From positions 682,001 to 746,000 of the forward strand of contig NZ_VUYQ01000002.1 in assembly GCF_008711155.1 (NCBI RefSeq): DNA of 64,000 bases. The letters are read 5' to 3'. Shown here piece after piece: positions 20,992 to 38,859 of the stretch. The DNA comes from Dechloromonas sp. CZR5. GTDB lineage: Bacteria; Pseudomonadota; Gammaproteobacteria; Burkholderiales; Rhodocyclaceae. Both the position numbers and the translations under genes were made by a program. The notes under the pieces were generated by a model. The model saw only the letters and a list, made by a program, of their open reading frames with translations. It did no database searches and had not been told where the DNA came from. Position 1 is the first letter of the stretch. Each line of letters starts with the position of its first letter.

Positions 20992-22243
20992 CCTCTGGCG
21001 CCGTTTCGTTCCACGGCGCCACTTTCAATAGCAGCACCATGCCCGGCACGGCGAGGGCCGAACACAGCCAGAAGAAGTTGAACCAGCCCAGTTGTTCAAC
21101 GAGCCAGCCAGCCGAGGCGTTGATGAAGGTGCGCGGTACGGCGGCCAGGCTGGTGAAGAGCGCCATCTGCGTTGCCGTGTAGGCAGGATGCGTGGCGCGG
21201 GCGATGAAGGCGACGAAGGCTGCGGTCCCCAGGCCGACGCCGAGGGCTTCGAGGCCGATGACGAAGGCAAGCGCCACGCGCTCGCTGGCTCCGATGCTGC
21301 CGTAATGCCCTTGGGCGGCGAGCCAGGCGAAGCCGAAAATGGAAACCAGCTGGACCACGCCGAACAACCATAGCGCCCGGTTGATGCCCAGTTTGACCAT
21401 CCACAGGCCGCCGAGCAAGGCACCGATGACTGCCGGCCACAGGCCGGCGTGCTTGGCGATCAGGCCGATGTCGGTCTTGGTGTAGCCCATATCGAGATAG
21501 AACGGGGTGGCCAGCGCCGTGCACAGGCTGTCGCCGAGCTTGTACAGAAAGATGAAGCCGAGGACCAGGGCGGCACCGCGCCAGCCCTGGCGGCCCATGA
21601 ATTCGTGGAATGGTTCGGTGACCGCCTGACGCAAGGTTTTCGGTGCGCCCTTGATACTGGGTTCGCTGACCAGCCAGGCCATGGCCATCCCGGGCAGCAT
21701 GAAGGCGCCGGTAATCCAGAACACCTCGTTCCACGGCAGGCGGTCGGCCAGGATCAGCGACAGCGAGCCGGGAATCAGGCCGGCAATGCGGTAGGCATTC
21801 ACATGCACGGCATTGCCGAGGCCAAGTTCGTTATCGCTCAGGATTTCGCGGCGGAAAGCATCGACGGCGATGTCCTGGGTGGCCGAGAGCAGCGACAGCA
21901 GTGTGGCCAGCCACAGGATGGGCCAGATGTTTTCCCTGGGGTTCAGGCCGCCGAGTGAGCCGATGGCGAACAGCAGACCGACCTGGGTGAGCAGCATCCA
22001 GCCGCGCCGGCGGCCGAAGCCGGGTAGGCTGAAGCGGTCGAGCAGCGGTGCCCACAGGAATTTCCAGGTGTAGGGGAACTGGATGAGGGCGAAGAAACCG
22101 ATGGTCTTCAGGTCGACGCCCTCGCTACGCAGCCAGGCCGGCAGCAGGTTGAGCAGCAGGTAGAGCGGCAGGCCCGACGAGAATCCGGTGAAGATGCAGA
22201 TCAGCATCTTCCGCGTGAGCAGGGCCGCGAGCCAGGCCGGCAT
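20975..22243 (-). CDS. AmpG-type MFS transporter (muropeptide permease family)
   Basis: AmpG proteins import anhydromuropeptides for peptidoglycan recycling. The 422-residue protein has about 12 hydrophobic segments and AmpG-like signatures: GFSSGLPLYLLLNLLPAWLR at the N-terminus, FLWAPLLDR, SATQDIAVDAFRREIL and the AYRIAGLIPG segment. The ATG at 22243 overlaps the metW stop by one base. The exact substrate cannot be read from the sequence; co-orientation with metX-metW looks incidental. Confidence 0.85.
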   Translation of the reverse strand: MPAWLAALLTRKMLICIFTGFSSGLPLYLLLNLLPAWLRSEGVDLKTIGFFALIQFPYTWKFLWAPLLDRFSLPGFGRRRGWMLLTQVGLLFAIGSLGGLNPRENIWPILWLATLLSLLSATQDIAVDAFRREILSDNELGLGNAVHVNAYRIAGLIPGSLSLILADRLPWNEVFWITGAFMLPGMAMAWLVSEPSIKGAPKTLRQAVTEPFHEFMGRQGWRGAALVLGFIFLYKLGDSLCTALATPFYLDMGYTKTDIGLIAKHAGLWPAVIGALLGGLWMVKLGINRALWLFGVVQLVSIFGFAWLAAQGHYGSIGASERVALAFVIGLEALGVGLGTAAFVAFIARATHPAYTATQMALFTSLAAVPRTFINASAGWLVEQLGWFNFFWLCSALAVPGMVLLLKVAPWNETAPEASHPA

Positions 22244-22854
22244 CAGCGGGCTTGCGTCAGGCGATAGACCGCCAGGCTGCCGAGGAAATTCAGTTCGCGC
22301 TCGTCGGCGTTCTCGACCATGTTGCCGCCCTCGTCGAGGACATGGCGCTCGCGGATGATGAGGCCCATCCGCGTGCACAGCGCCTCGAAGTCGAGCAGCG
22401 TGAAAAAGCGGACATTGGGCGAGTCGTACCACTGGTAGGGCAGGTCTTCCGAGACCGGCATGCGGCCGTCGAGGACCGAGCGCAGGTTCTTCCAGTAGGC
22501 GAAATTGGGGAAGGAAACGACGGCTTCACGGCCGACACGCAGCATTTCGCGCAGGACGCCCTCGGTATGGCGCACCGTCTGCAGGGTGCGCGACAGCACG
22601 ACATGGTCGAAGGACTGGTCGGCGAATTCGTCGAGGCCCTTTTCCAGGTTGCCTTGCAGTACATTGATGCCATTCGTGATGGCGGCAAGGATGTTGGCGT
22701 CGTCGATCTCGACACCGACGCCACGCACGCCGCGGGTATCGATCAGGTGCTTGAGAAGCGTGCCGTCGCCGCAGCCGAGGTCGAGCACACGGTGGCCGGG
22801 TTCGATCCAGGCGGAAATGATGTCGAAGTCGGGGCGTCCCAGCGTGTGTGTCAT
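22243..22854 (-). CDS. metW: Methionine biosynthesis protein MetW
   Basis: MetW is a class I methyltransferase-fold protein that accompanies MetX in many proteobacteria and is needed for full homoserine acyltransferase activity. The 203-residue protein has the SAM-binding motif [12 protein letters not shown], and [17 protein letters not shown] in motif II. It overlaps metX by 4 nt, so it shares the SAM-II-controlled transcript. Confidence 0.93.
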
Positions 22855-23981
22855 AGCTTGATGTTCCGCAGGTAGGCAGCGACGACGCCATGGTAGTGGG
22901 CATCGTCCATCAGGAAGGAATCGTGGCCGAAGTTGAGGTCGATCTCGGCGTACGACACGTTGCGGTTGCAGGCGAGCAGGGCGGCGACGATTTCCTTCGA
23001 GCGGGCCGGTGTGAAGCGCCAGTCGGTGGTGAAGGAAGCGATCAGGAAGCCGGTATTCGGATTGCTGCGGGCCATGGCCTTGGTCAGGTCGCCGCCGTCT
23101 AGGCGGGCCGGATCGAAGTAGTCGAGCGCCTTGGTCATCAGCAGGTAGGTGTTGGCGTCGAAATAGCCGGCGAATTTGTCGCCCTGGTAACGCAGGTAGG
23201 ACTCGACTTCGAACTCGACGTCGAAATCGAAGCCGAAGGAGCCGTTGCGCAGTTCGCGGCCGAATTTCTCACCCATCTGATCGTCGGACAGATAGGTGAT
23301 ATGGCCAAGCATGCGTGCCAGACGCAGACCGCGCACCGGGCGGGTATTGTGCTCGTAATAGTTGCCGCCGTGGAAATCGGGGTCGGTCAGGATGGCCTGG
23401 CGGGCGACGTCGTTGAAGGCGATGTTTTGCGCCGACAGTTTGGGGGCTGAGGCGATGATGATGGCGTTGCGGACGCGTTCCGGCTGGCTGATGGTCCAAC
23501 GCATGGCCTGCATGCCGCCCAGACTGCCGCCGATGATGGCCGCCCAGGCGTCGATGCCGAGGCGATCGGCCAGGCGGGCCTGGGCTTCGACCCAGTCGCT
23601 GACGGCGACGATGGGGAAATCAGCACCCCACGGCTTGCCGGTGGCCGGGTTGATCGATGACGGGCCGGTCGAGCCATGGCAGCCGCCCGGGTTGTTCAGG
23701 CCGACGATGAAGAACTTGTCGGTGTCGAGCGGCCGGCCGGGGCCGATGATGTTGTCCCACCAGCCGATATTGTTGGGCGCGTCGGCGTAATGGCCGGCGA
23801 CATGGTGGTGGCCGGACAGGGCGTGGCAGACGAGAATGGCGTTCGACTTGGCGGTGTTGAGGGTACCGTAGGTCTCGTAGACCAGATCGTAGGCCGGCAG
23901 AACCCCGCCGCTGCGCAAGTGGAGCGGCTGGTCGAAGTGGGCGCGTTGCGATGTGACGACGCCGACGGATTGTCCTGGCAT
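22851..23981 (-). CDS. metX: Homoserine O-acyltransferase MetX (probably succinyltransferase)
   Basis: MetX acylates homoserine, the committed step of methionine synthesis. The 376-residue alpha/beta-hydrolase shows the nucleophile elbow [10 protein letters not shown], the triad His in FGHDSFLMD, and [11 protein letters not shown] and [12 protein letters not shown] near the oxyanion region. The ATG at 23981 begins [12 protein letters not shown]; upstream in-frame residues belong to the leader. Proteobacterial MetX proteins paired with MetW often use succinyl-CoA, so the acyl donor is inferred. The leader carries a SAM-II riboswitch and a terminator. Confidence 0.94.
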
Positions 23982-23991
23982 GCTGTTCCTG

Positions 23992-24030
23992 AAAACAAAA
24001 AACCCAGTTGGCCGAAAACGCGAACTGGGT
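23992..24030 (-). terminator. Intrinsic terminator in the metX leader
   Basis: On the minus strand, ACCCAGTT pairs with AACTGGGT around a 13-nt loop, and TTTTTTGTTTTC follows directly. It lies 3 nt after the SAM-II aptamer and 10 nt before the metX start codon. It is therefore placed as the expression platform of the riboswitch. The AGGA ribosome-binding site follows the T-tract. Confidence 0.82.
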
Positions 24031-24033
24031 GTT

Positions 24034-24086
24034 CCCGTTTTAGCTGAATTTATAAGCGCCCGCAATCAGAGCTCAAATCGGCGCGG
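24034..24086 (-). promoter_or_regulatory. SAM-II (SAM-alpha) riboswitch aptamer for metX
   Basis: Read on the minus strand, the element has the SAM-II layout: a P1 stem GCGCC/GGCGC, the conserved loop start CGATTTGA, and after P1 the strand TATAAATTCAGCTAAAACGGG. TATAAAT-N2-AGCTAAAA is nearly identical to the conserved 3' strand of known SAM-II aptamers. A CUC in the hairpin loop can pair with the terminal GGG to make the pseudoknot. The aptamer binds S-adenosylmethionine and lowers metX expression. Position between a promoter and an intrinsic terminator supports the call. Confidence 0.9.
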
Positions 24087-24111
24087 CCGAACTCGCGTCC
24101 AGCGTTCTTGG

Positions 24112-24140
24112 ACGATACCGACGGTGCATCGAAATGTCAA
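24112..24140 (-). promoter_or_regulatory. Sigma70-type promoter of metX
   Basis: TTGACA (24140-24135), a 17-nt spacer and TATCGT (24117-24112) on the minus strand give a consensus -35 and a 4/6 -10. Transcription would start near 24105, about 20 nt before the SAM-II aptamer. Confidence 0.75.
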
Positions 24141-24221
24141 TGAAACGAGGCGCTTAAGGCGTTTCGAATAGTCAAGTTTTGTTAGAATTCCTCGCTTAAA
24201 TCCTTGGAAAGAATCTGGCTC

Positions 24222-24827
24222 ATGTTGGATCAACGAAGGCATCAGCGCATTCGCTTCGGTACGCCACAGACGATCAGTATCGGTTTTGGCGGGCAGGCAG
24301 GTAAGGGGGTGATCGAGAATCTCTCCCTGTCAGGATTGATGCTGCGGACGCCGATGCCGCTTGAGATTGCCCACAACATAGGGTGCGAGTTCAGCGTTTT
24401 CGATTCACCCGTGATTGATGTCCCGGCGGTGGTGGTCAGCCGCGTGTGTGATCTCTACGGGGTGCGTTTCCAGCAGGGGCCGATCAGCCAGATCGTGATC
24501 GAGGACGCGATCAATGCGGCGCTGGCCAGCGGCAAGGCTTCCATCCTGTCTGTCCACGAGTTGGGCAGGTGCAAGACGATGCGGATTACCGGCGGATTAT
24601 CCGCTGTCTTGCGCAGCGATTTCATGCATGCCCTGACCCGGATGGGGGTCGATGAAATCGACTTGGAGGGTGTGACAGCAGTGGAGCAGGCAGGCCTGGC
24701 GCTGTGCCTGGTCGCCACCAAACGTCACGGCGTAACCTTGGGCGCGCAATCAGTCTGTTTTGCCGAGGCTTGGGCACAGGCGATGGCTGCACCCGGCAGT
24801 ATCGAGCGATTGGAAGTCGACGGGTAA
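24222..24827 (+). CDS. PilZ domain protein with STAS-like C-terminal domain
   Basis: This 201-residue protein has a PilZ c-di-GMP-binding domain at 1-100, with R5-R-H-Q-R9 and the second motif NLSLSGLML (33-41), where Asn replaces the usual Asp. The C-terminal half (about 105-201) looks like a STAS/anti-anti-sigma fold: alternating strands and helices with the segment EIDLEGVTAVEQAGLALCLVAT in the phospho-loop position. The conserved acceptor Ser of true anti-sigma antagonists is not obvious. The ATG at 24222 is preferred to a TTG at 24204. It converges on a GGDEF gene, which fits c-di-GMP signalling. Confidence 0.75.
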   Translation: MLDQRRHQRIRFGTPQTISIGFGGQAGKGVIENLSLSGLMLRTPMPLEIAHNIGCEFSVFDSPVIDVPAVVVSRVCDLYGVRFQQGPISQIVIEDAINAALASGKASILSVHELGRCKTMRITGGLSAVLRSDFMHALTRMGVDEIDLEGVTAVEQAGLALCLVATKRHGVTLGAQSVCFAEAWAQAMAAPGSIERLEVDG

Positions 24828-33237: not shown

Positions 33238-33288
33238 GAATTCCCCTTGTGGAAAAACGATGGCTGCCTGTCCATGCAGCCCGGTTTC

Positions 33289-33452
33289 GTCTCCCGGCCG
33301 GTCTTCTGACTTGGATTCACCCGTTGCCGCGCCTTCCCGGTAAAAACCAGTGGCCGCCTGCGGCGAACGTCCTCCTTACAGCGTTGGGCACGTGGCGGAA
33401 TCGCACCGCCTTCCCGATTCTCCGCCTGCATGAACAAGCGGCACCGAGAGAC
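33289..33452 (-). promoter_or_regulatory. Cobalamin riboswitch controlling bluB-cbiB-cobD-btuF
   Basis: On the minus strand the leader shows the full cobalamin-element order: an outer P1 stem (GTCTCTCGG with CCGGGAGAC, one G-U pair), a GGTGCGATTCCGCC hairpin, the core CTGTAAGGAGGACG, GCCACTG, GGGAAGGCG, and the B12 box AAGTCAGAAGACCGGCC. It ends 51 nt before the bluB ATG. Adenosylcobalamin binding should lower expression of the leftward cobalamin unit. Confidence 0.95.
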
Positions 33453-33502
33453 CTGAAGTGCGAAGGATAACAGGTGGAGGCGGGGTAGCGCGACGGGCAG
33501 TC

Positions 33503-38616: not shown

Positions 38617-38667
38617 GGCCGGCATTGTGGGTGAAGGCGGGCAGGGCGGCAACCGCTATAATCCGGC

Positions 38668-38828
38668 TTCCGACATTACGGAACCCGGTGCGAGCACAGC
38701 TCAATTCCGGGGCGGGCCCGCCGCTGTAACCGGGGACTGCCGTTGCATGACGTCACTACGAGGGGAAACAGACCCTCCGGGAAGACGCAACGGACAGGAC
38801 GATCCGGAAGCCAGAAGACCTGTCGGAA
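38668..38828 (+). promoter_or_regulatory. Cobalamin riboswitch controlling cobT-cobS
   Basis: A perfect 8-bp outer stem (TTCCGACA 38668-38675 with TGTCGGAA 38821-38828) encloses the element. Inside are GGAACCCGGTGCGA, a GGGCGGGCCCGCC hairpin with CGCTGTAACCGGGGA, CCGGGAAGACG, and the B12 box GCCAGAAGACCTGTC. A TATAAT at 38656-38661 just upstream could be the -10, although no good -35 is visible. It lies 87 nt before cobT. Confidence 0.95.
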
Positions 38829-38859
38829 CGAGAAGTAGGAAGCCTGTGGACAGGGCTTC

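Follow-up and report, generated by a model that had tools for sequence, protein, structure and literature searches.

The leader of metX in the window, by which we mean the whole 64,000-nucleotide stretch of Dechloromonas sp. CZR5 DNA analysed here, carries a SAM-II riboswitch that very likely switches metX-metW off at the level of transcription. The computation finds an aptamer, a terminator and a conserved, covarying helix that competes with it; SAM would bind the aptamer, and binding would shift termination. The element ahead of metX is real. Each of its parts named in a first-pass annotation of the same DNA is confirmed at the coordinates reported below, and the SAM-II aptamer, promoter, terminator, metX and beta-proteobacterial host of that annotation are all upheld. 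Together these features provide a concrete, testable antiterminator model for transcriptional SAM-II riboswitches.

Architecture of the metX leader

Inspection of the sequence places the leader and the start of metX on the minus strand at 24140-23979. In order it runs through promoter, short hairpin, SAM-II aptamer (24084-24034), terminator, uridine tract and the putative ribosome-binding site AGGAAC to metX. The promoter had been annotated as TTGACA-17-TATCGT and is indeed found there on the minus strand, with the -35 hexamer TTGACA at 24135..24140 and the -10 hexamer TATCGT at 24112..24117 separated by a 17-nt spacer. Among five leaders compared, the window's own included, all five have TTGAC[AT] and TAT[CT]GT. 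By itself the promoter pattern is not significant, since two were found in 5 kb against 1.0 expected. The leader transcript would start near 24105.

A short 5' hairpin (24086..24103, minus strand) lies between the promoter and the aptamer, is present at every nascent length folded and perhaps protects the 5' end. By eye, related leaders keep an inverted repeat at this position (24086-24103) with other bases. At the distal end of the leader the putative ribosome-binding site AGGAAC (23985..23990, minus strand), recognised from its sequence, begins 1 nt past the uridine tract. The fold of the leader as a whole is not unusually stable (z -1.40; 17 of 200 shuffles equally good).

The gene that follows, metX (22851..23981, minus strand, start codon at 23981), is of the homoserine O-succinyltransferase type (NF047916.1, 664.1 bits, cut-off 560) and is overlapped by metW (22243..22854, minus strand; TIGR02081.1, 248.9 bits, cut-off 189.5). 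The Dechloromonas agitata metX (locus L136) is 92.3% identical in the best aligned piece. A PilZ-domain gene at 24216-24827 on the plus strand is divergent from metX, and the intergenic region is common to it and the metX promoter. The reading frame is open upstream of metX from a TTG at 24065, and the leader was considered as an N-terminal extension of MetX. This was rejected, as alignment to the protein families starts at residues 4-5 of the ATG form. It is also ruled out by the spacing of aptamer and start codon, which is 42, 43 and 56 nt in the window's leader and two same-genus leaders; the two differ from the window by 1 and 14 nt, which does not preserve the frame.

Assignment of the aptamer to the SAM-II class

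The aptamer (24034..24084, minus strand) comprises P1, L1 and the P2 pseudoknot and carries UAUAAAU..AGCUAAAA. Its P1 5' strand GCGCC (24080..24084) pairs with GGCGC at 24056-24060, and GAUUUG (24074..24079) supplies the L1 third strand, a role assigned on the basis of passages of PMC6061858. P2 joins GAUUGC (24062..24067) to GCUAAAACGGG (24034..24044), which includes the SAM-binding GCUAAA. The conserved strands of SAM-II are found in the window as L1 GAUUU (24079-24075), UUGC (24065-24062) and GCUAAA (24044-24039). All three are kept across alignment A1, which holds 47 diverse aptamers, 36 of them chosen by a pattern that demands most of each strand, and they are kept also in the 11 rows that no pattern chose. 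H-type pseudoknot pairing in A1 extends to 100% of cells in P1, 85.8% in P2 and 91.3% overall, against 32.4-51.7% in slid controls, values that are partly so by construction given the 36 of 47 pattern-chosen rows; in the window's own row, columns 23/55 are A.A and unpaired.

RF00521 (SAM_alpha) matches the region 23900-24220 at 24.1 bits (E 0.0016), below its gathering score of 36, and the only other Rfam match there at E 10 or better belongs to a microRNA family and falls far short of that family's cut-off. Over the whole window the Rfam gathering threshold returns only two cobalamin riboswitches, at 33279-33463 (minus strand, 115.6 bits) and 38654-38841 (plus strand, 73.8 bits), and does not list the metX leader. 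The leader is nevertheless the top match of RF00521 in the 4.29-Mb genome (E 0.005; next match 16 bits), in a search at E <= 10 in which 14 of 14 control genomes also match, none above the cut-off. No second convincing RF00521 copy was found in the genome at E <= 10, the next match (L002) having a coding appearance. An nhmmer search with the A1 profile from which the window's row had been removed recovered 24084-24034 at E 6.5e-14, the next match in the window being at E 0.42.

A covariance score below threshold had been named in the first-pass annotation as evidence against a SAM-II riboswitch, and the score does fall short formally (24.1 against 36 bits), but of the 121 genomes searched in the GTDB family only 21 have a match above that same cut-off. 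Here the Rfam cut-off of 36 is taken as a search threshold and not as a structural criterion; under the strict Rfam rule the leader would not be listed as a member. Homology below the cut-off is drawn from the genome-wide and family searches with RF00521, from A1 and from the A1 profile. The metX leader is a genuine if ordinary member of the SAM-II class, of a kind that is often under the Rfam cut-off, and its aptamer would bind SAM.

Terminator and competing antiterminator

The terminator consists of a 5' arm ACCCAGUU (24023..24030) and a 3' arm AACUGGGU (24002..24009) around what is by coordinates a 12-nt loop, with UUUUUGUUUU after the stem and a uridine tract at 23992..24001, all on the minus strand. 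The stem begins 3 nt after the aptamer, as annotated. A ready-made scan found no terminator in the leader, that scan permitting loops of 3-8 only, while a custom scan gave the window's terminator a score of 23.6, equalled by 0.2% of shuffled leaders. The sample for comparison was made up of 91 leaders from the window's own genome and the family's RF00521 matches, together with at least 118 named loci from a pattern scan; weaker family rows were omitted and L088 was dropped, its core motif being absent. A score of 20 or more was reached by 167 of 208 leaders and by 1% of shuffles. Lifting the score threshold raised the count to 180 of 208, but 31% of shuffles then scored too, and 28 of the 208 leaders have no terminator.

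Forty of the 208 form alignment A4 (distinct metX leaders, terminator 7-10 nt after GCUAAA, segment <= 70 nt), and here 97.2% of terminator cells are paired, with 36 double changes against 10.6 expected. The first-pass annotation had remarked on a classic terminator in place of simple masking of the ribosome-binding site. The surprise was misplaced, terminators being usual for this class: Corbino 2005, in the part relevant here, describes many SAM-II elements with intrinsic terminators, usually with a near-consensus promoter a few nucleotides before P1.

Overlapping this hairpin is an antiterminator whose 5' strand, GCUAAAACG-G-GAAC (24031..24044, minus strand), includes the SAM-binding strand of the aptamer and whose 3' strand, GUUC-G-CGUUUU(C)GGC (24011..24025, minus strand), overlaps the terminator 5' arm and loop. 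Both strands are backed by covariation and by minimum-energy folds of the nascent chain, which omit the pseudoknot and SAM. In these folds the antiterminator persists up to a transcript end at 23998 and the terminator takes over from a transcript end at 23995; at several nascent lengths a near-equal alternative replaces P1 in the minimum-energy fold. The fold of the window's leader has -14.5 kcal/mol against -7.2 for shuffles, 0 of 40 of which were as good. Simple duplex energy, on the other hand, does not set the window's own pairing apart (20 of 100 shuffles as good).

The pairing is conserved while its bases change. The window's leader and its nearest relatives pair AAAACG with CGUUU(U) and GAAC with GUUC, whereas many other leaders have AAAGCG with CGC and GGGC with GUCC. 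For the duplex and permutation tests the 28 terminator-less leaders and five more were left out of the 208, and the remaining 175 were reduced to 135 non-redundant leaders. In these the SAM-binding strand pairs downstream with a mean probability of 0.65, compared with 0.41 for shuffles, and when the downstream parts were permuted among leaders the observed pairing was reached 0 times in 2000. In the 40 leaders of A4 the antiterminator pairs in 80.8% of its cells and shows double changes in 14, against 4.2 +/- 1.7, although some of these represent one inherited event, the five A-U pairs coming from the window's leader and the four leaders closest to it. A control in which the partner is slid by +1 column still yields 15 double-change cells, with only 43.1% of cells paired. 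In a separate test of two antiterminator positions, from which 34 of the 135 leaders were dropped as the [AG]GC anchor was absent, covariation was absent at one position, which is nearly invariant.

An extended duplex between the P2 strand and the uridine tract was also considered as the switch and rejected: it is the minimum of the full-length fold, but it forms only alongside the terminator and so cannot prevent it.

Distribution of SAM-II-like RNAs

At E <= 0.3, RF00521 has a match in 86 of the 121 family genomes, and in 2 of 14 control genomes, none of the latter above the cut-off; the standard cut-off thus misses most of the family, leaving 100 of 121 genomes without a match above it. Two further models, each of which detects both subtypes, extend the picture. 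R1 is a covariance model that includes the window's row and also detects the metK type treated in a later section; at E <= 0.001 it has matches in 221 of 300 order, 135 of 274 class and 37 of 249 phylum genomes (either subtype, rough E-values; the class and phylum draws include a few genomes of the window's own order). R2, built from 16 elements of the sister subtype (type II) and also detecting the metX type, matches at E <= 1e-4 in 118 of 121 family genomes and in 105 of 105 good-quality ones (either subtype, rough E-values). Hosts from the pattern scan include, among the matches listed, Bordetella, Variovorax, Nitrosospira, Thauera, Halomonas, Thalassospira and Bradyrhizobium, with the proviso that titles of metagenome bins can err.

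The passages of Corbino 2005 bearing on this point report a few SAM-II elements outside the alpha-proteobacteria and list Bordetella bronchiseptica. The first-pass annotation had implied rarity, and had offered wider distribution or transfer as the explanation. Rarity was overrated, as SAM-II-like RNAs are common in the family and the order, and of the two explanations it is wider distribution that these counts bear out. The patchy distribution expected of horizontal transfer was not seen in the either-subtype counts for family and order. With SAM-II-like RNAs in nearly every genome of the family and widespread in the order, an isolated transfer into this genome is not needed and was rejected; within the clade the counts point to vertical spread.

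As to gene context, the 91 family leaders precede metX in 50 cases, metH in 19 and metZ in 13 (82 of 91), with none of the three downstream in nine, one of which (L072) is cut off by a contig end.

A model for SAM-dependent termination

By computation the leader combines a terminator with a mutually exclusive antiterminator that uses aptamer bases, the combination that characterises a transcriptional OFF riboswitch. According to the model, when SAM is low the nascent GCUAAAACG-GAAC would pair with GUUC-CGUUUU-GGC, and this antiterminator would sequester the terminator 5' arm and allow polymerase to read into metX. When SAM is high, GCUAAA would be fixed in the P2 pseudoknot and the antiterminator blocked; ACCCAGUU would then be free to fold with AACUGGGU at the uridine tract, and transcription would stop. 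An antiterminator of this form was not found for SAM-II in the literature searched, which was covered largely at the level of listings or passages. At the metZ gene of S. meliloti high SAM is reported to lower the metZ mRNA and raise the leader RNA RZ, a result that in the portion of PMC9373788 concerned supports SAM-dependent termination at that gene.

Control might instead be mainly translational, with SAM binding, the stabilised pseudoknot and the hairpin barring ribosomes from the ribosome-binding site, and the terminator secondary. The site does lie directly after the uridine tract, the full-length fold extends the stem into that tract, and translational SAM-II riboswitches are on record in the extracts available for the Sargasso metX riboswitch and S. 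meliloti metA. However, the ribosome-binding site is mostly unpaired in the predicted folds, and the terminator both covaries strongly and reaches the strict score in four-fifths of leaders (167/208), and we consider this alternative unlikely.

It is very improbable that the leader belongs to a distinct beta-proteobacterial RNA class with another ligand. Such a class has a candidate in the 'metXZ' element, which Leyn 2014 (PMC4239095), in the sections concerned, called new, described as a pseudoknot with a terminator and placed before metZ in Nitrosospira multiformis and three Methylophilales, with SAM_alpha reported only in Rhizobiales and Rhodobacterales; the want of any match above the Rfam cut-off in most family genomes would fit this view. 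Against it, the SAM_alpha cut-off is passed in some genomes of the family (21/121), the window retains the L1, UUGC and GCUAAA strands, and the topology described by Leyn 2014 in those sections (a pseudoknot of regions 1/4 and 2/6 with the terminator after it) is that of SAM-II. The placement before metZ in Nitrosospira and Methylophilales is moreover reproduced by SAM-II matches in Nitrosospira sp. Nsp14 (L117) and Novimethylophilus (L102). Compared by description and placement, the metXZ element is very probably SAM-II, and the separately named element would very probably be merged into that class.

That the aptamer is a relic in a constitutive attenuator, the terminator fixing the level of read-through, is hardly credible, for although the predicted terminator and antiterminator form without ligand, both the window and the 11 non-pattern rows of A1 retain the strands of the ligand pocket, and the antiterminator uses the same strand as that pocket.

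Related elements

Several observations made during the scans concern other RNAs. RF02424 (Bp2_287, a predicted Burkholderia sRNA) was found at five of the eight SAM-II loci that were scanned (L211 and L218-L221), each time on the strand opposite the leader and at 25-35 bits, below its cut-off of 70. These antisense matches make it probable that RF02424 models a SAM-II leader in the wrong orientation. When the printed RF02424 consensus is reverse-complemented by eye, the SAM-II strands are visible.

SAM-II elements with a terminator and without metX, metH or metZ downstream were found at L047, L073 (on a contig shared with L178), L081, L084, L098 and L283/L321 (L283 being without metK), and are preceded by a conserved block, AGYGCTGA with hairpins; L324 and L325 may belong with them. 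The combined pattern of this block and SAM-II occurs in 8 of 121 family genomes. These elements may be stand-alone RNAs of about 200 nt. At L015, L043, L211, L218-L221, L226-L230 and L285, a SAM-II with a terminator has another SAM-II-like element about 100 nt downstream of it. These tandem arrays front small variable ORFs in the loci examined, and five pairs occur in one class-level genome (G656). Terminator-first tandems, including 44 double SAM-II arrangements, are known from passages of PMC6061858 and PMC9481103.

A SAM-II-like leader of metK in the same genome

Outside the window, at C2:51976-52041 (plus strand) of the same genome, a SAM-II-like RNA precedes metK; it was found with both R1, which has two matches in this genome, and R2 (L217, L236, L286). 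Its core reads CGCCGAGUUAA..GACAACUUGC..GGGCG..ACAAAU..GCUAAAGCGUC, followed by GCUC, a hairpin and GGAGC before the start codon, with L1 as GAGUUAA where the metX type has GAUUUGA. In SAM-II numbering the altered L1 base is what we take to be the base of the third strand that should contact the uridine paired with the adenine of SAM. It is possible that GCUC pairs with the ribosome-binding site GGAGC as an anti-Shine-Dalgarno sequence. With the altered L1 base and this pairing, the metK leader may answer to another range of SAM or to another ligand.

The type is not confined to this genome. Among the 21 strongest family loci of R2, 18 have metK downstream, as do 14 of 20 further hand-picked R2 loci. 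A third model, R3, at E <= 1e-11 (rough E-values) finds the type in 49 of 250 genomes drawn from the order and in 3 of 185 drawn from the class, and of 32 R3 loci inspected 24 precede metK; the two class-level loci outside the order do not. No description of the metK leader was found in the literature searched. According to the relevant portion of Leyn 2014 (PMC4239095), metK has no known methionine regulator in beta-proteobacteria, and a search for one failed. Tentatively, and with some doubt, we propose that beta-proteobacteria have divided a single pseudoknot fold between two SAM devices per cell, an antiterminator type at metX, metZ and metH and a second type at metK. If this is true, the metK leader would be the missing metK regulator that Leyn 2014 sought, and the variant would bring the clade's SAM synthesis under control of the same kind.

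Comparison with known systems

The metX leader shares with SAM-II as defined by RF00521 (the metA motif of Corbino 2005) its topology, conserved strands, gene context, upstream promoter and downstream terminator; it differs in having a P1 of 5 bp (GCGCC/GGCGC), a short P2 and a hairpin between the promoter and P1. The core pseudoknot and ligand contacts are also the same as in SAM-V and in the SAM-II/SAM-V or SAM-II/SAM-II tandems, as far as these are set out in the passages drawn from PMC6061858 and PMC9481103. The difference is that the window has one element, and its ribosome-binding site lies outside the aptamer. In the account given in PMC4239095, as far as it concerns this element, metXZ agrees with the present leader in genes, clade, pseudoknot pairing scheme and a terminator directly after; the difference lies in the antiterminator, assigned by Leyn 2014 to the GC-rich regions 3 and 4 and here to the SAM-binding P2 strand. 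The S. meliloti metZ riboswitch, on the portion of PMC9373788 relevant here, likewise joins SAM-II to a terminator, in an alpha-proteobacterium.
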